From: Pontiellaceae bacterium | GTDB taxonomy: Bacteria > Verrucomicrobiota > Kiritimatiellia > Kiritimatiellales > Tichowtungiaceae | Reading direction: 5' to 3' | DNA length: 32,931 nucleotides | NCBI GenBank assembly: GCA_029939835.1 | Contig: JAOZSE010000008.1 | Location: 1-32,931, forward strand | In this document: positions 3,584 through 32,858 of the stretch, piece after piece | How positions within the stretch are numbered: position 1 is the first letter of the stretch | Layout: each line of letters opens with the position of its first letter | The notes under the pieces: generated by a model | Databases searched by the model: none | What the model saw: the letters and a program-made list of their open reading frames with translations, nothing else | Told to the model about the DNA's origin: nothing | Made by a program: the position numbers and the translations under genes

Positions 3584-3592
3584 CTGCTGTGT

Positions 3593-3696
3593 GGAGTGCG
3601 CAGGCTTGCCTGCGCTTTTCTCTCCGGAGCTTGCTCCGCGTATAGATGGCCGAAGCAAGCTTCGACCGACAGAGCGCAGGCAAGCCTGCGCACTCC
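3593..3696. repeat. 104-nt four-hairpin repeat, CTTG/CAAG loop family (copy A)
   Basis: Terminal GGAGTGCG and CGCACTCC are inverted copies of each other. Between them lie four hairpins: GCGCAGG-CTTG-CCTGCGC (3598-3615), CGGAG-CTTG-CTCCG (3625-3638), CGAAG-CAAG-CTTCG (3651-3664) and GCGCAGG-CAAG-CCTGCGC (3674-3691). The loop is constant while the stems differ. The element lies exactly 9 bases past both converging stop codons (the PurF-like gene and the thymidylate synthase-like gene), so it could also act as a bidirectional terminator. A second copy of identical length is inside gspJ at 14126-14229. Confidence 0.93.
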
Positions 3697-3705
3697 AAAA
3701 CGTTA

Positions 3706-4605: not shown

Positions 4606-4628
4606 GGGTTTTCCTTTCAAAATATTGG

Positions 4629-4680
4629 GTAGGGACCGCTCTCCGAGCGGTCCACGGACGGTTCGGAGAACCGTCCCTAC
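4629..4680. repeat. 52-nt BIME-like repeat, TCC/GGA loop family (copy 1)
   Basis: Two hairpins are arranged head to head: GGACCGCTC-TCC-GAGCGGTCC (4633-4653) and GGACGGTTC-GGA-GAACCGTCC (4656-4676). The element starts with GTAG and ends with CTAC. It lies between the HIT hydrolase stop and the start of the thymidylate synthase-like gene. A second 52-nt copy with a different left stem lies at 7844-7895. Confidence 0.92.
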
Positions 4681-4684
4681 CTAG

Positions 4685-7031: not shown

Positions 7032-7847
7032 ATGAGCATTATGGAATCGAAAGTGGTTTTTGTCGGCGCGGGAAATATGGCGGAGGCCATCGTCAGCGGC
7101 ATGCTCGCGGAAAGCTTCTGTGCGCCGGAAAAAATTGTGATGACGGATATCCGCCCGGAACGGCTCACCGATCTCGAAAATGAATATGGCGTTACCGTCT
7201 CCACGGATAACAGCGTCGTCAAAAATGCCGAAATGGTTGTGCTGGCCGTTAAACCGCAGGTACTGCCGGAAGTACTCAAAGACCTGGCCGCCGATCTGCG
7301 TCCTGAGACGCTGATCATCAGCATCGCGGCGGGTATTTCCACGGCAAAAATCGAATCCACGCTCGGCGGCGAACGCCGTGTAGTCCGGGTGATGCCCAAT
7401 ACGCCCGCGCTGGTCGGGCAGGGAGCTTCCGCGCTTGCGGCGGGCTCCAACGCCGACGAAGCCGATCTGGAAGTGACGGAGGCCATCCTGCAATGCGTCG
7501 GGCTGGCGGTGCGCGTTGAAGAAACAGATATGGATGCCGTTACCGCGCTGAGCGGATCCGGCCCGGCCTATGTTTTCTACCTGCTCGAAGGCATGCTGGC
7601 CGCGTCCGAAAAAATGGGGCTTGATGAAGAGACGGCGCGGTGGCTGGCACTCAAAACCGTCGAAGGGGCCGCGCGGCTCATGACCGATTCCGGCGAAACG
7701 GCGGAGGCTCTCCGGGAGAAAGTTACTTCCAAAGGCGGCACCACCGAAGCGGCGGTTCGTCTGCTCGACAAAGCGGGTGTGAAAAAGGCGGTCGTTAAAG
7801 CGATTCTCGCCGCCCGAAAGAAATCGGTTGAATTATCCCAAGGGTAG
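7032..7847 (+). CDS. proC: Pyrroline-5-carboxylate reductase
   Basis: ProC catalyses the last step of proline synthesis, NAD(P)H-dependent reduction of 1-pyrroline-5-carboxylate. The 271-residue protein begins with the Rossmann fingerprint VVFVGAGNMAEAI. It contains VLAVKPQVL, SIAAGIS, RVMPNTPALVGQGASAL and the C-terminal signature region ALSGSGPAYVF through KVTSKGGTTEAAV. GGAGG at 7020-7024 lies 7 bases before ATG 7032. The TAG stop lies inside the GTAG foot of the repeat beginning at 7844. Confidence 0.97.
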   Translation: MSIMESKVVFVGAGNMAEAIVSGMLAESFCAPEKIVMTDIRPERLTDLENEYGVTVSTDNSVVKNAEMVVLAVKPQVLPEVLKDLAADLRPETLIISIAAGISTAKIESTLGGERRVVRVMPNTPALVGQGASALAAGSNADEADLEVTEAILQCVGLAVRVEETDMDAVTALSGSGPAYVFYLLEGMLAASEKMGLDEETARWLALKTVEGAARLMTDSGETAEALREKVTSKGGTTEAAVRLLDKAGVKKAVVKAILAARKKSVELSQG

Positions 7848-7895
7848 GGACGCCTCTCCGAGGTGTCCTCGGACGGTTCGGAGAACCGTCCCTAC
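7844..7895. repeat. 52-nt BIME-like repeat, TCC/GGA loop family (copy 2)
   Basis: GTAG...CTAC bound two hairpins: GGACGCCTC-TCC-GAGGTGTCC, whose stem contains a G.T wobble, and GGACGGTTC-GGA-GAACCGTCC. Length equals that of the copy at 4629-4680. The stop codon of proC (7845-7847) is part of the foot. It may help end or stabilise the proC transcript. Confidence 0.92.
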
Positions 7896-7947
7896 CATAA
7901 ACTTGACTGCCCAAGGTGAGCGCTGTATTACTATCCGCTATTTTATG

Positions 7948-8091: not shown

Positions 8092-10356
8092 TCACTTGGT
8101 CTCAGCTTTTGCTGCACGGAGTTCCTGAAGAATCAGGTCTGTACTGCTTAGTTTTGGAGTCTCGGCTGGCTTTTCCTCAGACACTTCGCTGATATCTTTT
8201 TCGCCGGAGGCTTTGCTATTATCCTCTTTGGCCGATTCCTCATTGCGGAGCGGGCTTTCGGACCAGCCGGGCGGCCAAAGGGTTTTGCTGGAATCGGACG
8301 CTTCGTAAATGCGGCGCGTTTCGCGCTCCGCCTCTTCGGGCGTAGTCAGCACGTAGGGCGTTAGCAATACAATGAGTTCGCCGCGCGCATCAGAGTTGTT
8401 GTGCGAGCTGAAAAACCAGCCGAGCAGGGGGATGTCGCCGAGAATTGGAATTTTGGTGGAGCTTTTGCGGGTGGATTTATTGACCAGTCCGCCGAGTACA
8501 ATCGTGGAGCGGTCCTGCACAGCCACCTGCGCGCTCATTTCCCGTTTTAGAATGATAGGCACTTCATTCCCGTCAATCGTGACGTTTGAGCCGACGTCAT
8601 CGGCCGACTGCGTGATTTCCATGACGACATAACCCTGCGGGTTGATGTGCGGGGTGACGGTGAGGTTGATCCCGATGTTACGGTATTCATAGGTGGAGCG
8701 CGCCGTGGTGCTGCTGTCACTGTTTACGGAGGAGGTGATGATGGGGTGTTCTTCACCAACCGTAATTTTGGCTTCCGTATTGTCTGTTGTCAGAATGACC
8801 GGGGTGGATAGAATCCGCGCATCACCATCGGTTTTAGCCGCATGGATAATGGTCTTTAAATTCAGTTCGGGAAAAACACCGTAGTAACTAAGAGCCCCGC
8901 CAACCATGTTTGTAGCTAGGCTAGCCGCATCAAATCCTATTCGATTGAGGTCAGTTAAAGATTTATAAAGGTTCTCGGTAATTTCAAATCCAGCATTTGT
9001 TATTGTTCTGGTCGCAATAACAGCCCGTTCTTCTTCAATATTTTGATACACCCACTGGATACCGGTTTGGAGCGAGTCGTTGAGGTTGACGTTGAGGATG
9101 ACGGCCTCGATGAGGACCTGAGCGAGCATGACATCCAGATTGGCGATGACGGCTTTGAGGGCTTCAATGTCGGACTTGCGGCCCATAAGGAGCAGGGAGT
9201 TGGTGCGCTCATCGGAAAGGATTTTGGTCTCGGCGGAGAGGCGGCCGATCGCGCTTTTAGCTTCAGCGCTGATTTCGCGCCCGGTGGTGGAGGTGACTTT
9301 TTCGACCGCTTCTTCAATGCTTTTACTGCCTTCATCTTTCCCGCCCGGGCCGATACTCTTGGTTTTTTCGGTGGCTTTGGCCGCTCCGATGAATTCGTTG
9401 AGGACACCGGAGATTTCGGACGCCTCGGCATACTCAAGATTGACGACTTCGACGATGACTTCGGGGTCAACGGGGACGTCGAGCACTTTGATGATGTTGT
9501 CGAAAAAGTCAAAGTTGGCGGCTTTCGAAAAAATAATGAGAATATTGGTGCGCTCATCGGAGACAAATTTGACTTCGCCCTGAATCATTTCGGTTTCGTC
9601 AGCCGGAGCGCTTTCCGGTTTTACGGCGGTACCGGCGGTTTTGGGCGCGCGGATGACGCCGGGGATGGTGCGCCCGCCGCCGGCGACAACGGTCTGTTCG
9701 CTTTTTTTGGTTTTGGCGGCCTCGACCAGCTCTTTGAGCTTACCCGCAACCGTTCCGGCGGTGGCGTGTTTGAGCTGGTAGATGCGGGGTTCAATTTTTT
9801 CGACAGGCTGATCCACCATGGTGATCAGTTCAACGATCCGGGCGATATTGGCGGAGGTGTCCGTAATGAGGACGCTGTTGATGCGATCCATCTGGATGAT
9901 TTTTCCGTAGCCGTGGACAAGATGCTGGATGAGCGGCTGGACATCGGCAAAGACGACGTAGCGCAGGGGAATGACCTGGGTGATGAGCTGGTCGGCCTCG
10001 GTGTATTTCTGGTCTGGATCGAAGGGTTTGATTTCCATCCCTTCCTGCCGGGCGTTGGCGATGGGGACGACTTTGAGGAATTTGTCGCCCATCGGAACGA
10101 GGGCGATGCCGTGCATGGCGAGGACGGTTTCGATGGCCTGTTTGGCTTCATCCCGTGTCAGTTTGCTGTATTGAAGGGTAACGGTGGGTTTTAGATCGGC
10201 CTGCGTGATCAGTGTGCGGTCCTCTTCCTCGTTGTAAAGAAGCACCAGCTGCTCAAGGGTGGCATCCTTCAATTTCTGTGAAAAAAGCTGCTCCGCCCGG
10301 GCACAAAACGTTGCGCTGAGCAGGGCGGTCATCAGAAGGAAAAGTGTCTTTTTCAT
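8092..10356 (-). CDS. gspD: Type II secretion system secretin GspD
   Basis: GspD forms the multimeric outer-membrane channel through which folded proteins leave the cell. The 754-residue protein starts with a Sec signal peptide (MKKTLFLLMTALLSATFCARAE). An N0-like domain (about 25-110) and N1-N3 repeats follow, for example VIPLRYVVFADVQPLIQHL, RIYQLKHATAGTVAGKL and VVNLEYAEASEISGVL. The secretin domain ends with MSAQVAVQDRSTIVLGGL and KIPILGDIPLLGWFF. A charged C-terminal tail of about 60 residues may bind a pilotin or the membrane. It is the last gene of the operon, 96 bases after gspM, with only a weak ribosome site. Codons for residues about 430-495 (8870-9060) are visibly more AT-rich than the rest. 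Confidence 0.95.
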   Translation of the reverse strand: MKKTLFLLMTALLSATFCARAEQLFSQKLKDATLEQLVLLYNEEEDRTLITQADLKPTVTLQYSKLTRDEAKQAIETVLAMHGIALVPMGDKFLKVVPIANARQEGMEIKPFDPDQKYTEADQLITQVIPLRYVVFADVQPLIQHLVHGYGKIIQMDRINSVLITDTSANIARIVELITMVDQPVEKIEPRIYQLKHATAGTVAGKLKELVEAAKTKKSEQTVVAGGGRTIPGVIRAPKTAGTAVKPESAPADETEMIQGEVKFVSDERTNILIIFSKAANFDFFDNIIKVLDVPVDPEVIVEVVNLEYAEASEISGVLNEFIGAAKATEKTKSIGPGGKDEGSKSIEEAVEKVTSTTGREISAEAKSAIGRLSAETKILSDERTNSLLLMGRKSDIEALKAVIANLDVMLAQVLIEAVILNVNLNDSLQTGIQWVYQNIEEERAVIATRTITNAGFEITENLYKSLTDLNRIGFDAASLATNMVGGALSYYGVFPELNLKTIIHAAKTDGDARILSTPVILTTDNTEAKITVGEEHPIITSSVNSDSSTTARSTYEYRNIGINLTVTPHINPQGYVVMEITQSADDVGSNVTIDGNEVPIILKREMSAQVAVQDRSTIVLGGLVNKSTRKSSTKIPILGDIPLLGWFFSSHNNSDARGELIVLLTPYVLTTPEEAERETRRIYEASDSSKTLWPPGWSESPLRNEESAKEDNSKASGEKDISEVSEEKPAETPKLSSTDLILQELRAAKAETK

Positions 10357-10452: not shown

Positions 10453-10983
10453 TCATTCGCTATTCCGCCGGTAGGCGCAGTCAATGATCATGGAACCTTT
10501 CAGGACGCCTTCACGCCGGGCGTCGGGCATGGCGTTGAGCTGGCGGACATCAAAACGGATGCCTTGGCTCTGGAGGTCGTAAAGGAAACGGACGAGCGCA
10601 TCGAGTTCACCCTCCCAGTTGCAGCTGACACCGAGTTCGTAGAGCGCACCGCGCTGTTCTTCGCGGTAGGGCTGGGTGCGAATGAGGTCGAGGCCGTATT
10701 CATCGGCGGTGCGCTTGATGAGCTTGAGCACTTCGGCGGTGACGGAGGTTTTCTCGTTATATACCGGAAGCTGATCCTGAAGCTCAATGAGGCGGCTGAT
10801 CCAGTCTTTTCTTTCGTCGAGAATCCGCTTATGCAGTTTAATCTGCCTCAGGAGACGGGTTCGTTCTTCGGTGAGCTGCCGCTGCGCGGCGATCTTCGAG
10901 CCGGCCAGCCAGTAGGTGAAGCCGAAGAGCACCACGGTCAAGGCGGCCATACCCAGCAGGAGTTCGCGCCTTGAAAATTTCAT
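10453..10983 (-). CDS. gspM: Type II secretion inner-membrane protein GspM (PilO-like)
   Basis: The 176-residue protein has a short cytoplasmic start (MKFSRREL), one membrane helix at about residues 8-28 (LLGMAALTVVLFGFTYWLAG), a coiled-coil stretch at about 30-70, and a periplasmic ferredoxin-like domain. GspM/PilO proteins pair with GspL and connect the cytoplasmic ATPase to the pseudopilus. Sequence similarity in this family is weak, so the call rests on topology, length and position: the start overlaps the gspL stop by four bases (ATGA) and the gene precedes gspD. Confidence 0.82.
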   Translation of the reverse strand: MKFSRRELLLGMAALTVVLFGFTYWLAGSKIAAQRQLTEERTRLLRQIKLHKRILDERKDWISRLIELQDQLPVYNEKTSVTAEVLKLIKRTADEYGLDLIRTQPYREEQRGALYELGVSCNWEGELDALVRFLYDLQSQGIRFDVRQLNAMPDARREGVLKGSMIIDCAYRRNSE

Positions 10984-12383
10984 GGCCGGTCCTCCTGCGG
11001 TTGTTTGGGAAGTTCCGCCGTGAGGGAAAAGGTGGAGACGCGCCGGTCTTTGATGGTGCGCGTGCTGACGGGCTGATCTTTAATCCGTTCAAAGAGTCCG
11101 GACGCGCTGAGCTGCTGGAAGTAGTCATAGATGGGGTCGGCGCGCTCGCTGGTTCCCCGCAGGCTCACGGAAGCGCCCTTTTTGTAGGTGAAGGAGCTGA
11201 TTTCGACCCCCTCGGGAAGGGCGGCGGTAATTTCGCGCAGGCATTCGAGCGCCGAGCGGGAGCGGTCTGAATATTCTTTGAGCGAGAGCATGGCTTCGCG
11301 GGCGGCCTGTGCTTTACGCGCGGGCTCCTCATAGATGGCGGCCTGTCGGCGGATGCGGCGGCAACTGGCCTGCCGGATGGAGAAAACGACACCCGTAATC
11401 GTGACCACGGCCAGCCAGATGCTGAGCACCGCGATGGAGGCAATGGTGGCAATGCGCATGATCCGTTTTTTCCGCTGCAGTTCAATCCACTCGCGCGGCA
11501 CCAGTTCGACATGGTGCAGCCCGCGTTCGGCGGTACGCAGCGCCAGTCCTTCGGCCAGCGGCGGTAATGTGCCCAGATCGTGCAGCGACACGTCGGCTCC
11601 GCAGGCTTTTTTCAGCATCCGGACGAGCGACGGCGGCACTTCGGCCTCGCTCCAGAACAATACCGAATCGGTTTCGCGGTGGCCGTATTCAGCTTCAAGC
11701 GACAGCAGCGTATAGCGAACCTCCTCGGAAACTTCCTTCATCACGGCTTCATCGCTGAAGTTATGAAACAGTTCGAGAGACCGGAAGCAGACGGGTACGC
11801 CGTCATCCACGACGATCATGGAAAATTCTGTATGTTCTTCGAGCACGAGTACAATCCGCCCCTTGTCCGGCGCCTGCGCGTGGGCGACCAGCAGGCTCCA
11901 CCATGCCAGTATTTCGGCGTCCAGACTGCGGATATAGATATTCTTTTCCTTAAAGAGATCGCCGAGGGTGTCCACCACCTTGCGCGGGGCCGCCACCGCC
12001 AGCACCCGGGAGTGGTCTTCGGTCTGATGCAGTACCTCATAGGAGACCGTCATTTGGTCAACGGGGAACGGCGATATCTGGTCGATCTGCAGTTCCACCA
12101 TGCCGCGCAGCTCGTCCGCGTCGGCGGAGGGCAGTTCGATCACCCGCATCAGCAACTGTGATGAGGGCAGCGCAAGCGTCACGATGCCTTTAAAATTATT
12201 GCGGATTTCAGGAAGCACCTCTGCAGGGAAGAGCGGGGCGTTTTCCTGTTCAAAAAAACCTTCCGGCAGGGGCAGGGTACCTTCGTACAGTTTTTCCGTA
12301 CCACGGCGGTTTTTGCGCAACACGGCCCACTCGACGATTTCGTCGGTAAAGTGGATCCCGGTTGTATGAGTGAATAGCAACAT
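10980..12383 (-). CDS. gspL: Type II secretion protein GspL, fused PilM/PilN-like
   Basis: The 467-residue protein has a cytoplasmic actin-like PilM-type domain (about 1-300; VTLALPSSQLLMRVIELP, PFPVDQMTVSYEVL, LAVAAPRKVVDTL). A membrane helix follows at about 312-338 (IATIASIAVLSIWLAVVTI), then a coiled segment and a periplasmic PilN-type domain (LREITAALPEGVEISSFTYK, VSLRGTSERADPIYDYFQQL). In type IV pili these parts are separate proteins; the fusion is what defines GspL. It recruits the GspE ATPase to the inner membrane. It lies 8 bases after gspK and overlaps gspM by four bases. Confidence 0.88.
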   Translation of the reverse strand: MLLFTHTTGIHFTDEIVEWAVLRKNRRGTEKLYEGTLPLPEGFFEQENAPLFPAEVLPEIRNNFKGIVTLALPSSQLLMRVIELPSADADELRGMVELQIDQISPFPVDQMTVSYEVLHQTEDHSRVLAVAAPRKVVDTLGDLFKEKNIYIRSLDAEILAWWSLLVAHAQAPDKGRIVLVLEEHTEFSMIVVDDGVPVCFRSLELFHNFSDEAVMKEVSEEVRYTLLSLEAEYGHRETDSVLFWSEAEVPPSLVRMLKKACGADVSLHDLGTLPPLAEGLALRTAERGLHHVELVPREWIELQRKKRIMRIATIASIAVLSIWLAVVTITGVVFSIRQASCRRIRRQAAIYEEPARKAQAAREAMLSLKEYSDRSRSALECLREITAALPEGVEISSFTYKKGASVSLRGTSERADPIYDYFQQLSASGLFERIKDQPVSTRTIKDRRVSTFSLTAELPKQPQEDRP

Positions 12384-12391
12384 ATCAGTGC

Positions 12392-13462
12392 TCAGTGCTG
12401 TTTTCCTTCGAGCCAGAATAGTGGAGAGGCCTCCTTTTCGCCCAGCTTAAAGATGCAGGAGATTTCACTGGTGATATTCCCGACGGCGCCGACACTGGTA
12501 ATGGTGACATATTCCGGCTTCAACGTGAAAAGATCGGAACTGAGGCCCAGCGCCGCGAAATCTTCCTGCGTAATTCCGTCGTCTTCCGTTTCGGCTTCGC
12601 CGTCGAGGCCTAGACGGGCGTCCATAATGTCATCAATCACAGCTTCAGGAATACCAAGGCTGTACAATGTAGTACGGCTTGCACTGTTGGGGTTCACTTT
12701 TCCGTTTCCCCAGGTGGTCAGTTCCGCAGCGAGGCCGGTCATAGGTTCCTCAGCTTCCGCCAGAGCGTCCGGCGGCGTACCGTAGAGAATCTCCTCGGTC
12801 CAGTCTTTGATCAGCAGCAGTTCATCCACCGTATCCACAGGGGCGTTTTTGCACTCATAGCCGCGCGTGCGGTAGAACGTATGGTCAGATTCCGCACCGT
12901 TGGCCCGGTGGGCGTCATTTTCGTCCTCCCAATCCTCCAGACAGGCGAGCAGGGTGTCCCACTTCGTATTGGGAACACCGGTTTGAATGAAAAGTTCTTT
13001 CCATCCGTCACGCGAAAGCTTGTGGATATTGCGCCGTCCTTTTTCATAGTCGATGTCCACGGTGACCGTTCCGTCGCCGAACGCCTCGCTGTAGCCCACT
13101 ACTGGAACTCCTTTGGCGATTTTAGCTGCTTCATTCAAATAAGGGTCTTCATAGACAATGTCTTCGCCGGGATTTTCCTCTTCAAAGGCCATCATGGCTT
13201 TGGCCAGTTCCACGCCCGCCAGCGCCAGCCGGTCCGCCTTGAAGCGCTTGCGTTGTGCGGAAATAATGCGCGCCTCCAACTGCATTTCAAAAGCAAACGT
13301 GCTCACAATCATGGCGACAATCACCAGCACCCACATCACCACAATCAGCGCCGCGCCGGACTTTTTAGAATTTTGACCACAGAGGACACAGAGACTCAGA
13401 GGGAAGGAAATGGTGCCTTCTCTGTGCCTCTGTGTCCTCTGTGGTGAATAAAAAATCTTCAT
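12392..13462 (-). CDS. gspK: Type II secretion minor pseudopilin GspK with repeat-encoded leader
   Basis: GspK caps the tip of the pseudopilus with GspI and GspJ. The 356-residue protein has the class III signal KKSG|AALIVVMWVLVIVAMIV. As is typical of GspK, it lacks Glu at mature position 5. A large alpha-helical domain follows, with the GspK motif WGNGKVNPNSASRTTLYSLGI. The 36-residue leader is unusual: codons 6 to about 28 are made by an inverted repeat at 13376-13445. No ATG, GTG or TTG lies in frame between the repeat and the cleavage site, so translation must run through it. The start ATG overlaps the gspJ stop (TGATG) and is preceded by GGAAG. Confidence 0.9.
   Translation of the reverse strand: MKIFYSPQRTQRHREGTISFPLSLCVLCGQNSKKSGAALIVVMWVLVIVAMIVSTFAFEMQLEARIISAQRKRFKADRLALAGVELAKAMMAFEEENPGEDIVYEDPYLNEAAKIAKGVPVVGYSEAFGDGTVTVDIDYEKGRRNIHKLSRDGWKELFIQTGVPNTKWDTLLACLEDWEDENDAHRANGAESDHTFYRTRGYECKNAPVDTVDELLLIKDWTEEILYGTPPDALAEAEEPMTGLAAELTTWGNGKVNPNSASRTTLYSLGIPEAVIDDIMDARLGLDGEAETEDDGITQEDFAALGLSSDLFTLKPEYVTITSVGAVGNITSEISCIFKLGEKEASPLFWLEGKQH
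13376..13445. repeat. Inverted repeat inside the gspK leader (ACCACAGAGG family)
   Basis: ACCACAGAGGACACAGAG (13376-13393) is repeated as an exact 18-nt reverse complement at 13428-13445, with a 34-nt spacer. From memory, similar ACCACAGAGGACACAGAG-type sequences are scattered in many environmental bacterial genomes. Here it is translated in frame (SPQRTQRHREG...LCVLCG) between the gspK start codon and the prepilin cleavage site. Confidence 0.95.
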
Positions 13463-14247
13463 CAGTTTGCTTCCGAAACATCATTGGTGACTTCGGGGCC
13501 GAGCGGAATTTCGATGAGCTGGCGAAATTCAACGGGTTCGTCGTATTCCTTCATTGGCTCCGCGTAGAGCGTAATTTCAAGCAGTCCGGGAATGGCGTTG
13601 GTATGTTCCCAGCGGCTTTCCCAACCCTCATGGTCTTCTTCGGTGTCATATACCCGGCAGCGAAGTCCTTTGATGTTTTCGCTGATGAACCAGCTCTTTT
13701 TATCGACCTCATCCTCGTCGGCCAGATGCGGCCAGACGGTGACGACCAGCCCTTCCTCACCGTCCTCGTCCCTTCCGCCGCCGATCTCAATGCGGTGCAG
13801 GCCGTGCTTGAACGCCTCGCCCGGCGGAATAAACGCGCCGCTGGCGGTAACCCAGCTGATCGTGTGTTCCCCATATCCCGTTGGATTGTTTTCCATCCGG
13901 AACGCGTATTTATCCGGCGCGGAATCAAAAAACGCCATGGAGCGGAGCGAAGCCGACAGTTGGGTGAGTACGAAATCGCCATGATGAATTTTATCCATCA
14001 GTTCCCGCCCGCCGGTCCATGCGCGTGTCGCGGTCGAAAAAGTCTGCCATGCCACGGTGAGGGCAATGGAGAGAATCACCATCGAAATCAGTACTTCAAG
14101 GAGAGTAAAACCGCGGCAAGATTTTGGAGTGCGCAGGCTTGCCTGCGCTTTTCCCCCCGAAGCTTGCTTCGGGAAGGTTAACGCGGAGCAAGCTCCGCTG
14201 ATGAAAGCGGCAGCAAGCTGCCGCATTCCATAACGATTTCCGCTCAT
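13462..14247 (-). CDS. gspJ: Type II secretion minor pseudopilin GspJ with repeat-encoded leader
   Basis: GspJ is part of the pseudopilus tip complex. The 261-residue protein carries the class III signal CRG|FTLLEVLISMVILSIALTV, with Glu at mature position 5, and a beta-rich C-terminal domain typical of GspJ (GLLEITLYAEP, FRQLIEIPLG). The leader is 46 residues instead of the usual 6-10. About residues 7-41 are encoded by the four-hairpin repeat 14126-14229 (MRQLAAAFISGAC... QASLRTPKS). The start is well supported: GGAGGA lies 7 bases upstream and the ATGA overlaps the gspI stop. No other in-frame start lies between the repeat and the cleavage site. Confidence 0.9.
   Translation of the reverse strand: MSGNRYGMRQLAAAFISGACSALTFPKQASGGKAQASLRTPKSCRGFTLLEVLISMVILSIALTVAWQTFSTATRAWTGGRELMDKIHHGDFVLTQLSASLRSMAFFDSAPDKYAFRMENNPTGYGEHTISWVTASGAFIPPGEAFKHGLHRIEIGGGRDEDGEEGLVVTVWPHLADEDEVDKKSWFISENIKGLRCRVYDTEEDHEGWESRWEHTNAIPGLLEITLYAEPMKEYDEPVEFRQLIEIPLGPEVTNDVSEAN
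14126..14229. repeat. 104-nt four-hairpin repeat, CTTG/CAAG loop family (copy B, within gspJ)
   Basis: It has the same architecture and length as the copy at 3593-3696. Terminal GGAGTGCG and CGCATTCC flank hairpins with stems GCGCAGG, CGAAG, GCGGAG and GCGGCAG, with loops CTTG, CTTG, CAAG, CAAG in plus-strand order. The stems differ from copy A but remain self-complementary. It is translated as part of the GspJ leader. Confidence 0.93.
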
Positions 14248-14714
14248 CGCTCTTCCTCCGGCGGAATGTAGTGCCAGGTGACGATTTCCTCAAAACTCTC
14301 GCGGCCGCGGGCGGACCAGCTCACCCTCGTACGCACGGTATAGAGCCCTTCGCGCTCTTCGTCTTCGGGTTCAGTGATTTCACGCTCCCACTTGTAGCCA
14401 TTATCAAATGAACCGGAGTCTGCTCCGGCATCCAGTTCGCTGCGGGTGAGGGGGTTTTCTGCACCGACCTGCAGAATCAGACGCTGCGCCGTGCTGTAGT
14501 GGCGTGCTTTGGCAATGACCGCCAGGCAGCGGGCCGTCGCCAGCATCAGGGTGCCCGCACCGATCCCGAGGATCACCATGGCCAGAAGAACCTCGATGAG
14601 GGTTAACCCGCTTTTCCAGAGGGTAGACGAGGCTTCCAGCCTCGTTTGCGCCGGCGAGGTGTCTTGCGTTTTCGAACGAGGCTGGAAGCCTCGTCTACGG
14701 TAGAGATTCACCAT
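14244..14714 (-). CDS. gspI: Type II secretion minor pseudopilin GspI with repeat-encoded leader
   Basis: The 156-residue protein has the class III signal KSG|LTLIEVLLAMVILGIGAGTLM and a short globular domain, matching GspI, which starts tip-complex assembly with GspJ and GspK. The 36-residue leader is mostly repeat: codons about 6-31 come from the 76-nt element 14623-14698. The start at 14714 has GGAGGAG 6 bases upstream, within the end of gspH, and overlaps gspH by 7 bases. There is no in-frame alternative start after the repeat. Assignment as GspI, not GspH, rests on size and gene order. Confidence 0.88.
   Translation of the reverse strand: MVNLYRRRGFQPRSKTQDTSPAQTRLEASSTLWKSGLTLIEVLLAMVILGIGAGTLMLATARCLAVIAKARHYSTAQRLILQVGAENPLTRSELDAGADSGSFDNGYKWEREITEPEDEEREGLYTVRTRVSWSARGRESFEEIVTWHYIPPEEER
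14623..14698. repeat. 76-nt inverted repeat, TTCCA loop family (copy within gspI)
   Basis: The 24-nt arms are exact inverted copies, from GTAGACGAGGCTTCCAGCCT onward at the left and ending CTGGAAGCCTCGTCTAC at the right, separated by 28 nt. Each arm is itself a hairpin, CGAGGC-TTCCA-GCCTCG. The feet are GTAG and CTAC. A twin of the same 76-nt length with an unrelated spacer lies between genes at 27639-27714. Confidence 0.95.
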
Positions 14715-15214
14715 GACGACTCCTCCACGGTTGTTTTTCCGGAAATCGGATTGCAGGAAACCGTCACGCGCCGGTCTTTTTCATCACGGAAAGTCACCGA
14801 AAACCCGTCATTCATGCCGGTGGAATAGTAGTGTACCGCGCGCCCTTCATCAGGGATGCCATCTGCTTCGGCCAGGTTTTCGAATTCGCTGATTTTAATA
14901 TCGCCCGGCAGGCGGCGGGAGGTTTCCGGTTCGGCGGCGTTGGTGCCGCCGCATGAAAGCGTCAGCAGGCCGTCCTTGAAGCGGAGCGTGCATTCGTCCT
15001 GTTTGAGAATGGACATGCTGCGTGCATAGCGGGCCATACGGACGGTTGAGCGGACGGCGTCATTCATCTGGGTGGATTGAAACGTGCCCCGGAAAAGCGG
15101 GACAGAAACGCCTGTGGCAATCAGGATAATTACCACCACCAGAAGAATCTCGATGAGGGTGAAGGCATTTTTGATTGACGATTGATGATTGATGATTGGG
15201 GAATTGTTTTTCAT
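14708..15214 (-). CDS. gspH: Type II secretion minor pseudopilin GspH with repeat-encoded start region
   Basis: From ATG 15214 the protein has 168 residues with signal KNA|FTLIEILLVVVIILIATGV and a GspH-like beta domain (VRMARYARSMSILKQDECTLRF). The residue before the cleavage site is Ala, not the near-universal Gly, so processing may be less efficient. A longer in-frame reading from 15400 would overlap gspG by 146 bases and is rejected. The inverted repeat 15174-15248 covers the weak ribosome site, the start codon and leader codons 1 to about 14 (MKNNSPIINHQSSI). Confidence 0.85.
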   Translation of the reverse strand: MKNNSPIINHQSSIKNAFTLIEILLVVVIILIATGVSVPLFRGTFQSTQMNDAVRSTVRMARYARSMSILKQDECTLRFKDGLLTLSCGGTNAAEPETSRRLPGDIKISEFENLAEADGIPDEGRAVHYYSTGMNDGFSVTFRDEKDRRVTVSCNPISGKTTVEESSW

Positions 15215-15248
15215 AGAAGTCTTCAATCGAAAATCATCAATCGTCAAT
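15174..15248. repeat. 75-nt inverted repeat over the gspH start (ATTGACGATTGATGATT family)
   Basis: The 17-nt arms ATTGACGATTGATGATT (15174-15190) and its exact reverse complement (15232-15248) flank a 41-nt spacer. The spacer also repeats GATTGATGATT. The element lies between the gspG stop and the gspH cleavage site and supplies the gspH initiation region. Folding would hide the gspH start, which could tie its translation to gspG. Confidence 0.93.
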
Positions 15249-15254
15249 TTCTCC

Positions 15255-15653
15255 CTATTCCCAGCTGTTGAAGTCGGCCCCGTCGGGAGATCGGGTGGAA
15301 AGGTCATACCCCCGGTTATGGCTGCCGGGCTTGCTGTACTGGAATTTCTGTCCCCATGGATCTTGAAGTTCGCTTGGTTTGAGATAGGGCCCCTTGCCAT
15401 CCTTCACCTTGGTCAGATCGTCGAGACTGTCGGGCAGGCGCAGGTGCTCCATTTCATAGTTTTGAACGGCAGTTTCAATGCTCTTGAGGCTGGCGCGCGC
15501 CGCGACATCCAGCGACATGCCGATCTTGCCCGACATGCGCGGCACAGCAATGCCGATAACAATGCCGATAATGACCACCACCAGCAGGATTTCAATCAGT
15601 GTGAAGCCGCCTTTGGATTTATGATTTCCGATTTTAGATTTCTGATTCTTCAT
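15255..15653 (-). CDS. gspG: Type II secretion major pseudopilin GspG
   Basis: GspG polymerises into the pseudopilus that pushes substrates through the secretin. The 132-residue protein has leader MKNQKSKIGNHKSKGG, cleavage before FTLIEILLVVVIIGIVIGIAVPR, and the GspG signatures LKSIETAVQNYEMEHLRLPDS, GPYLKPSELQDPWGQKFQY and GYDLSTRSPDG. The C-terminal aspartates would form the family's calcium site. AGGAG lies 7 bases before ATG 15653. The leader is a run of A-rich near-repeats (see 15615-15650) of the kind that recurs as dispersed repeats in related bacteria. Confidence 0.96.
   Translation of the reverse strand: MKNQKSKIGNHKSKGGFTLIEILLVVVIIGIVIGIAVPRMSGKIGMSLDVAARASLKSIETAVQNYEMEHLRLPDSLDDLTKVKDGKGPYLKPSELQDPWGQKFQYSKPGSHNRGYDLSTRSPDGADFNSWE
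15615..15650. repeat. Short AAATC-type repeat encoding the gspG leader
   Basis: On the coding strand the leader is built of AATCAGAAATC, TAAAATCGGAAATC and ATAAATCC units, giving the peptide rhythm NQKSKIGNHKSK. I recall such AAATC repeats as a frequent dispersed family in PVC and other environmental bacteria. In this window there is no second copy, so the repeat call is weaker than for the other four leaders. Confidence 0.5.
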
Positions 15654-15668
15654 CTCGTACTCCTGTTG

Positions 15669-16904
15669 TTAAACACCTAATCCGCTGGTCAGGTCGAAAA
15701 CGGCCAGCAATAAACTGATAACCACGAATCCCACAATGACTGCGACACCCAGAATCAGAACCGGCTCAATCACCGTGGTCATAATTTTAATGCTTCGGTC
15801 GAGGTCATCGTCATAGCGCCGGGCGATGTGCTGCAGCGCGCCGGGCAGGTCGCCGGTTTCTTCGCCGATGGCCAGCATATCGGTCAGCAGCGCCGGAAAC
15901 ACGTTGCCCGCCGCCAGCGGGCCGGAAACGCTCGATCCGTCCGTAACGCGTTCGCGTGCAGCGGAAATTTCCTGCGCGATCACCTGGTTGCCGATGGTTT
16001 CCTGCACAATCACCAGCGCACGCAGGATCGGCACGCCGTTGCGGATGAGCGTTTCGAGTGTGCGGGCGAAATGGGCGAAGGCGTTGGCTTGGACGATGTT
16101 GCGGATGACCGGCCACTTGAGTTGCCTCGCGTGCCACCAAAATCGACCGGCTTCGGTGCGCAACCACTTTCGGAACACAACCCCTCCTCCTAGAAGAAGA
16201 AGTAAGATTAACCACCCATAATTAATTATAACGGTACTCATGTTCATGAGAATGCGAGTTGCTAAAGGGAGTGTTCCGCCTAGGTCATCGAAGATACTTG
16301 TAAAGCGAGGCACAATGAATGTCATTATGAAAATGACGGTGAGTAAACCAAAACCAAGCACAATCGCCGGATAAATCATGGCCGTGATCACTTTGCCTCG
16401 GGCTTCCTGTACGCGTTCATAATGATGACAAAGTCCTTCCAGCGACTCGGCCAGCACACCGGAGGCTTCTCCCGCGCGCACCATACTGATGTAGAGCTGC
16501 GGGAAGGTGTCGGGATAGATTTTCAGCGCGTCAGAGAGGGCGCTTCCCTGAACCACTTCGTCGCGCAGGCGCTGGACAATCTGTGCCTGTGCTGAGGTGC
16601 CGGTGCGTTGCGCCAGGGTGTGCAGCACCCGGCCCAGTGTCATACCTGAGGCAAGCAGATCGGCCGTTTCACGGGTAAAGAGGAGTACATCGTGCGGTTT
16701 CATCCGCAATTTAGTGCCGGTTTTCCACTTAAACCGGAACCGTTTCCGTCCGGCGGCCTGCGGCGCGGCGGCCTGTTCCAGCGAGAGCGGCATATGGCCC
16801 TCCTTCTGGAGTAACTGCATGGCACTGCGCCGGTTGGCGGCCTCTACGGTGCCGTCCAGCCGCTGGCCGTCTGCATTGCGCGCAATATATTTGAAGGTTG
16901 GCAT
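15669..16904 (-). CDS. gspF: Type II secretion inner-membrane platform protein GspF
   Basis: GspF is the polytopic platform on which the pseudopilus is assembled. The 411-residue protein begins with the usual MPTFKYIARNADGQRLDGTV. It has two T2SSF domains (about 70-195 and 275-400), each followed by membrane helices: VLGFGLLTVIFIMTFIVPRF, IINYGWLILLLLLGGGVVF and ILGVAVIVGFVVISLLLAVF. It is the first gene of the operon in this window. No gspE lies upstream, since the next gene is divergent. Codons around 16170-16370, the central membrane region, are much more AT-rich than the rest. The ATG has no clear Shine-Dalgarno sequence. Confidence 0.95.
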   Translation of the reverse strand: MPTFKYIARNADGQRLDGTVEAANRRSAMQLLQKEGHMPLSLEQAAAPQAAGRKRFRFKWKTGTKLRMKPHDVLLFTRETADLLASGMTLGRVLHTLAQRTGTSAQAQIVQRLRDEVVQGSALSDALKIYPDTFPQLYISMVRAGEASGVLAESLEGLCHHYERVQEARGKVITAMIYPAIVLGFGLLTVIFIMTFIVPRFTSIFDDLGGTLPLATRILMNMSTVIINYGWLILLLLLGGGVVFRKWLRTEAGRFWWHARQLKWPVIRNIVQANAFAHFARTLETLIRNGVPILRALVIVQETIGNQVIAQEISAARERVTDGSSVSGPLAAGNVFPALLTDMLAIGEETGDLPGALQHIARRYDDDLDRSIKIMTTVIEPVLILGVAVIVGFVVISLLLAVFDLTSGLGV

Positions 16905-27635: not shown

Positions 27636-27638
27636 ATT

Positions 27639-27714
27639 GTAGACGAGGCTTCCAGCTTCGTTTGGTTGAACGAAACGTTTTGTAAAACAGAACGAGGCTG
27701 GAAGCCTCGTCTAC
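27639..27714. repeat. 76-nt inverted repeat, TTCCA loop family (intergenic copy)
   Basis: It has the same length (76) and almost the same 24-nt arms as the element inside gspI (14623-14698). The left arm has one change (GCTTCG for GCCTCG) that becomes a wobble pair. The 28-nt central spacer is unrelated. GTAG and CTAC are at the feet. It fills the gap between hisF and hisI. Confidence 0.95.
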
Positions 27715-27729
27715 ATAAAAGGAAGACGA

Positions 27730-32754: not shown

Positions 32755-32858
32755 AACCCACCCCGCCGTTCAGGCACCCCTCCGAGGGAGGGGATTGTGT
32801 GGACGGTTGTTTCTTGGTTCCCCTCCTTTGGAGGGGTGGCCGTAGGCCGGGGTGGGTT
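32755..32858. repeat. 104-nt palindromic repeat (AACCCACCCC...GGGGTGGGTT)
   Basis: AACCCACCCCG at the left is mirrored by CGGGGTGGGTT at the right. Inside are CCCCTCC-GAG-GGAGGGG (32777-32793) and CCCCTCC-TTT-GGAGGGG (32820-32836), plus short GCC-GTTCA-GGC and GGCC-GTA-GGCC stems. It lies upstream of cls, in the gene-free stretch 32698-32931, where I see nothing else. Repeats of this type are, from memory, widespread in Bacteroidetes and PVC genomes. Confidence 0.88.

Follow-up and report, generated by a model that had tools for sequence, protein, structure and literature searches.

Why do the pseudopilins of one type II secretion system (T2SS) carry such long leaders, and where does the DNA encoding them come from? 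The operon in question, gspF-G-H-I-J-K-L-M-D by profile matches, lies on the minus strand of contig C146 (JAOZSE010000008.1) of a Pontiellaceae bacterium (order Kiritimatiellales), analysed at its full length of 32,931 nucleotides (the window) and belonging to a metagenome-assembled genome of 1.93 Mb in 183 contigs, 87% complete. Its pseudopilins present the features of class III signals, namely a hydrophilic basic leader, G/A at −1, F/L at +1, E at +5 (missing in GspK) and a hydrophobic helix. Counted to the cleavage site, the leaders of GspG, H, I, J and K are 16, 17, 36, 46 and 36 aa long, exactly as the initial annotation of this DNA had given them; the median for other pilin and pseudopilin genes of the genus is 8 aa. 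That annotation had traced all five leaders to dispersed repeats and regarded the cleaved leader as a tolerated landing site, in which repeats have become translated N-terminal coding sequence. The core of this idea withstood those of the checks proposed with it that could be run, with a narrower reach: judged from the DNA itself, the gspI, gspJ and gspK leaders are translated dispersed palindromic repeats, gspH is a partial case and gspG is not one. The probable explanation, in our view, is repeated in-frame insertion of repeats into the leaders of minor pseudopilins, tolerated since the leader is cleaved off, in a manner resembling Rickettsia palindromic elements (RPE) and repetitive extragenic palindromes (REP).

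The leader segments were delimited by sequence and genus comparison, together with frame tests for gspI and gspJ. In gspI (14244..14714, minus strand, as for all genes below; PF07963, weak TIGR01707) the leader (14607..14714) contains a palindrome pair at 14623..14698, formed by two inverted copies of GTAGACGAGGCTTCCAGCCTCGTT that are 24 nt long and 100% complementary. This repeat fits the GTAG-tagged REP/REPIN form, with the inverted pair GTAGACGAGGCTTCC...GGAAGCCTCGTCTAC, the tag being seen for the gspI repeat. Its family gave 26 high-scoring segment pairs over both strands of its own genome, has an intergenic copy in the window (27638..27715) and is present in 9 of the 14 genus genomes. The gspJ leader (14110..14247; gene 13462..14247, PF07963, TIGR01711) holds a 109-nt unit of four palindromes (GCAGGCAAGCCTGC / GAAGCAAGCTTC / GGAGCTTGCTCC / GCAGCTTGCTGC; 14122..14230), which is 79% complementary to an intergenic copy at 3592..3700 and recurs about 20 times elsewhere in the genome with 74–94% identity. 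An inverted-repeat scan located a ACCACAGAGGACACAGAG-type repeat at 13373..13448 within the gspK leader (13355..13462; gene 12392..13462, PF21687, NF037980), and this hairpin has several further copies in the genome. The own-genome copies of the leader repeats run over 75–115 nt.

The two remaining pseudopilins differ from this pattern. In gspH (14708..15213, start ATG at 15213), assigned from weak NCBIfam GspH/ComGD/N_methyl matches and operon position, a ATTGACGATT-type inverted repeat (15174..15248, score 17.5) spans the start codon, which lies in its loop, so that half of the repeat is 5′ untranslated region; the leader itself occupies 15163..15213, and for the repeat arms three or more matching sites were found elsewhere (E 5e-6 to 0.002). 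The leader of the major pseudopilin gene gspG (15606..15653; gene 15255..15653, PF08334, TIGR01710) has AAATC-type content and a single weak match elsewhere in the genome (26 nt, E 7e-4), and its peptide is homologous across the genus (MKNRKSK, MRNRKSK, MNNRRSK; in general MxNRKSK). From these sequences the gspG leader is an inherited one that owes no more than some added length to AAATC-type units, and gspG was rejected as a landing site. The proposal that the repeat families occur elsewhere in the genome thus held for gspI, gspJ, gspK and gspH and failed for gspG.

Evidence that the repeats are translated came from the starts and from the reading frames. The gspI and gspJ starts sit at or beside the upstream stop, mostly as ATGA, GTGA or TTGA, and are preceded by a GGAGG-like site that usually lies within the upstream gene. 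In the window, gspI has the Shine-Dalgarno sequence GGAGGAG at 14720..14726, within the 3′ end of gspH, and gspJ has GGAGGAAG at 14252..14259, within gspI; the gspJ start overlaps the gspI stop (ATGA), and the gspK start abuts the gspJ stop (TGATG). Stop-start overlap in operons couples translation, and the gspI and gspJ starts are likewise locked in NTGA-type overlaps. As had been claimed, the ribosome-binding site and start of gspI and gspJ precede the repeat, and no in-frame start was found 3′ of the repeat in the window gspI, gspJ or gspK. Across the genus, the overlapping or abutting start was in frame with the mature domain in 12/12 gspI and 13/13 gspJ genes (25/25, chance being one third). 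In the used frame, all of the 21 filled leaders (795 codons) were free of stops and open (21/21), while each of the other five frames contained 16–26 stops and was open in 5–9 of the 21. Compared with the two alternative same-strand frames, the used frame was also more basic (charge +5.1 vs +2.7, p 0.0025) and more hydrophilic (grand average of hydropathy −0.77 vs −0.44, p 0.0004). Such a pattern of frame, stops and charge meets the needs of a class III leader translated in the cytoplasm and is difficult to account for in untranslated DNA, so that translation of the repeat leaders is strongly supported at the sequence level.

These tests bear directly on the reading in which the repeats lie in untranslated spacers, with the true starts further downstream and the long leaders a product of annotation, as cautioned by Di Nocera et al. 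(2013) for N-terminal REPs. It is true of half of the gspH repeat, and misannotation of N-terminal REP copies is considered common (PMC3733652), but the missing downstream starts in gspI, gspJ and gspK, together with the start-frame (25/25) and stop and charge results, led us to reject it as very unlikely. For one gene class, the tests answer a misgiving voiced in work on REPs, namely that intragenic copies at N-termini are for the most part misannotated.

The operon was compared with those of 13 other genomes of the genus (14 with its own). Mature lengths were constant, truncated contigs aside (G 118, I 122–129, J 215–219, K 316–332 and F 411–416 aa), but leaders measured anything between 2 and 97 aa. 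From one species to the next, nearly all filled leaders represented different repeat families; the types included GGAATATTGG units, GTATGGGAG units, AATCGGC units, TTCCAA-loop units, GGGTGGG-type units and a palindrome read as GVRRQAEG...AAWHFVSRRTP. Leader peptides of gspI, gspJ and gspK were not common to different species, unlike that of GspG, so the expectation of unshared peptides stood for the former three and not for the latter. Orthologue alignment, suggested at the outset as a way of finding leaders that lack repeats, recovered them: gspJ leaders were empty (2–3 aa) in G003, G005, G006 and G009, gspI leaders were short and devoid of a strong hairpin in two species, and gspK leaders were short in most species. 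On a seven-protein tree, G005, with an empty gspJ and a short gspI leader, was the sister of G007, in which both are filled, and gspJ required at least nine independent gains when counted by repeat-family label. The gspI leaders of the window genome and G004 belong to one family, yet these genomes are not sisters on the tree, and they may share it either by common descent or by parallel insertion. The same family could also fill different genes (G007 gspJ and G010 gspI, 81%; G004 gspJ and G013 gspI, 78%), and the family of the G007 gspJ leader occupies at least 12 places in that genome. The longest gspK leaders, 97 aa in G008 (L059) and 87 aa in G001 (L068), consist of several tandem CCCACCCCG-type repeats, and their start codons are less certain; an inverted repeat at 32755-32858 of the window is related to the GGGGTGGGTT type that fills these two leaders.

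The other genes of the operon were described initially as lacking insertions, and this proved correct: gspF, encoding an inner-membrane protein (15669..16904; PF00482, TIGR02120), the gspL/PilM-like gene (10980..12383; PF11104, PF05137) and gspM (10453..10983; PF10741, NF040576) had no N-terminal insertion in any genus member compared, and the gspD secretin gene (8092..10356; PF00263, TIGR02517) is clean in the window. No insertion was found at the gspL-gspM junction in any of the compared genus operons.

The effect was concentrated in the minor pseudopilins. Leaders of at most 20 aa were found in 100/111 other pilins of the genus vs 6/28 GspI/GspJ, and long ones in 11/111 vs 22/28 (p 2e-12), and a general enrichment of repeats in class III signals, as had been proposed for testing, was rejected on these numbers. 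The few long leaders outside the T2SS mostly look repeat-coded again, with strong hairpins. In a minor-pilin triplet, the third gene was filled in the window genome (L009), G002, G008, G012 and G013 and short in G007 and G009, and a second gspJ-like gene was filled in G013 and short in G008. Stop-start overlap as the sole cause was likewise rejected, since non-T2SS pilins were long in 7/38 overlapping vs 5/72 separated genes (p 0.10). At 56 T2SS loci elsewhere in the class, with genes labelled by operon order, leaders longer than 24 aa occurred in 18/55 H, 7/36 I, 7/26 J and 0/56 G genes. One class J leader (L225) had at least six further copies in its genome at 76–83%; five others tested gave weaker or no support.

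To place the leaders in their genomic context, 645 kb sampled from two genomes (that of the window and G007) were scanned for inverted repeats, with codon-shuffled DNA as the control. Strong inverted repeats (score at least 14) numbered 41 vs 0 in the former and 17 vs 1 in the latter, and were chiefly intergenic. Coding copies besides the leaders were few and fell, as named by eye, in Mur-ligase-like, glycerate-kinase-like and DUF2064-like proteins and at the C-terminus of an ABC ATPase; in-gene insertion is therefore not confined to cleaved signals, contrary to the original suggestion. By sequence, RPE-like in-frame insertion occurs in the genus, most densely in the leaders. The RPE-like in-gene insertions lie at L015:10200-10253 and L020:3035-3088 in the window genome and at C3:301426-301491 and C3:104368-104440 in G007. 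A separate repeat family, a 55-nt GGGTAGGGAC...GTCCCTACC palindrome, has two intergenic copies in the window (4627-4681 and 7842-7896, 91%), and its core was found again inside a gene in L020.

REP-associated tyrosine transposase (RAYT; Y1_Tnp) domains were present in 14/14 genus genomes, and one RAYT of the window genome, itself inserted in frame in PriA, has palindromes sharing the core of the gspI repeat (15–25 nt) on its flanks. Five or more species of the genus have a RAYT (PF01797) in frame inside a single open PriA gene, between the 3′BD and helicase domains (L263, at C75:35029-35304 of the window genome, L274 and L281 by Pfam; L279 and L280 by sequence similarity). The ends of the window genome's PriA-RAYT bear palindromes with the gspI-leader core, and in G007 and G010 (L274, L281) the RAYT holds an extra in-frame REP-like insert (GRDEGVxST...NVDATPSS) that is missing from the window genome's copy. 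RAYTs were also found in frame in the CCA-adding enzyme, in the exonuclease VII large subunit (XseA) and, in G003, in HypF, the loci being L262 (C58:9591-9830 of the window genome) and L283, L278 (C75:44530-44751 of the window genome) and L275, and L276; at least four different host proteins contain an in-frame transposase, with no stop codon.

We propose that dispersed palindromic repeats (REP/REPIN-like) would insert repeatedly behind the start codon, ahead of the segment encoding the mature protein, chiefly in gspI, gspJ, gspK and gspH, and that some at least have probably been moved by the RAYT transposases of the genus. The gspI and gspJ start codons are fixed by their overlap or contact with the upstream stop and by a Shine-Dalgarno sequence usually inside the upstream gene, so that inserted DNA would be forced into the reading frame. 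An insertion would be retained only when in frame, stop-free and read as a hydrophilic basic peptide, which could act as the cytoplasmic-side class III leader. Since prepilin peptidase would presumably remove even the long leaders and leave the mature pseudopilin unchanged, insertions would be tolerated and perhaps nearly neutral, and the leader would be a tolerated, rapidly refilled site. The leader repeats may in addition have a regulatory role.

Several observations weigh against this explanation. Strong inverted repeats were present in 12/27 gspI/J leaders vs 35/404 co-directional gaps (p 4e-6), or vs 35/201 gaps of at least 30 nt (p 0.004), the gap counts resting on a home-made gene caller; pure tolerance predicts an occupancy no higher than that of intergenic gaps, and the excess would also fit a role of the hairpins under selection or preferential insertion. 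Of the 38 other pilins with overlapping starts, 31 stay short, which means that overlap and cleavability are not sufficient. The link to RAYT is a short similarity (25 nt at 88%, E 6e-4) in one family alone, the set of filled leaders was selected by length, and the start codons of gspG, gspH and gspK were partly picked by rule.

The same excess over intergenic gaps is what would be expected if an RNA hairpin were selected at each minor-pseudopilin start, where it would lower or time coupled translation and set a low ratio of minor to major subunits, any folding repeat being serviceable. Different families do converge on one site, and hairpins are found in the minor genes H, I, J and K and not in gspG, which had an inverted repeat in 0/14 genus genomes and, as given above, no long leader in the class. 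Against it stand the four species with an empty gspJ, the two with short gspI leaders lacking a strong hairpin, the short gspK leaders of most species and the other minor pilins, which are mostly without hairpins; neither sequence nor structure is conserved, and the operon gave no match to a known RNA family in Rfam. We consider this reading unlikely. Its fuller form, in which lineages independently capture available hairpin-forming mobile repeats to damp or pace translation of the tip subunits relative to GspG, so that unrelated selfish repeats come to be domesticated convergently as 5′ structures that are translated, seems to us just as doubtful. The occupancy and the refilling of one site by different families could also reflect a hot spot, at which the transposition machinery favours structured or stop-start regions of the operon regardless of tolerance; at least eight unrelated-looking families (direct units such as AATCGGC and GGAATATTGG as well as palindromic REPs) would then have to share one target preference, and the gspL-gspM junction is never hit, which makes a hot spot highly improbable. 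That the leaders are inherited, long and of low complexity, their likeness to other loci being a convergence of short simple motifs, describes gspG well and is refuted for gspI, gspJ and gspK by the unshared peptides, the empty sites and the length of the own-genome copies; as a general account it is extremely improbable.

Repeated insertion into a cleaved leader would turn these operons into a natural experiment, run many times over, on the sites at which translated mobile DNA can survive in the bacterial proteome, and, with filled and empty orthologues side by side, tolerance and a selected hairpin function become separable by experiment. Pilin leaders of this group that are unusually long and not conserved would be inserted repeats, which bears on start annotation and on the use of leader length as a type IVa/IVb trait.

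Palindromic repeats lying in frame are already known, as is a repeat within one predicted signal peptide. Our search of the open literature, which is not proof of absence, returned no report of repeat-derived pilin leaders, and none of the papers searched described many families recurrently occupying one cleaved segment throughout a genus and class. The signal-peptide precedent is the RU-2/YPAL repeat in the predicted signal of Yersinia YPO1552 (Delihas 2007, PMC2759123), a single class I signal without the recurrent pattern over many families and species. Long class III leaders, as in type IVb pilins and Streptococcus sanguinis, are cytoplasmic, removed by prepilin peptidase and compatible with function, and are not described there as repeat-derived or species-variable insertions (PMC10191384), unlike those reported here. 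Also comparable are the GTAG/CGTC-tagged, RAYT-associated intragenic REPs, palindrome dimers that code for 20–30 aa in open reading frames, including those of Opitutus terrae, a relative within the Verrucomicrobiota (Di Nocera et al. 2013, PMC3733652). The gspI leader shares the GTAG-tagged dimer within an open reading frame; in that study most N-terminal copies were judged probable misannotations and the main text contains no pilin, whereas here the frame, stop and charge tests favour translation, with repeated hits on one gene class. The RPE of Rickettsia are palindromic repeats of about 100 bp that lie in frame in unrelated protein genes and are translated (Ogata et al. 2000, 2002, as reviewed in PMC10969869 and PMC2229807). 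Like them, the leader repeats are palindromic, dispersed, in frame, stop-free and translated, and the host protein is kept; unlike RPE, which are reported from within mature proteins, most strong coding copies here fall in a cleaved peptide, in a different phylum, and the leaders are refilled by many families in different species.

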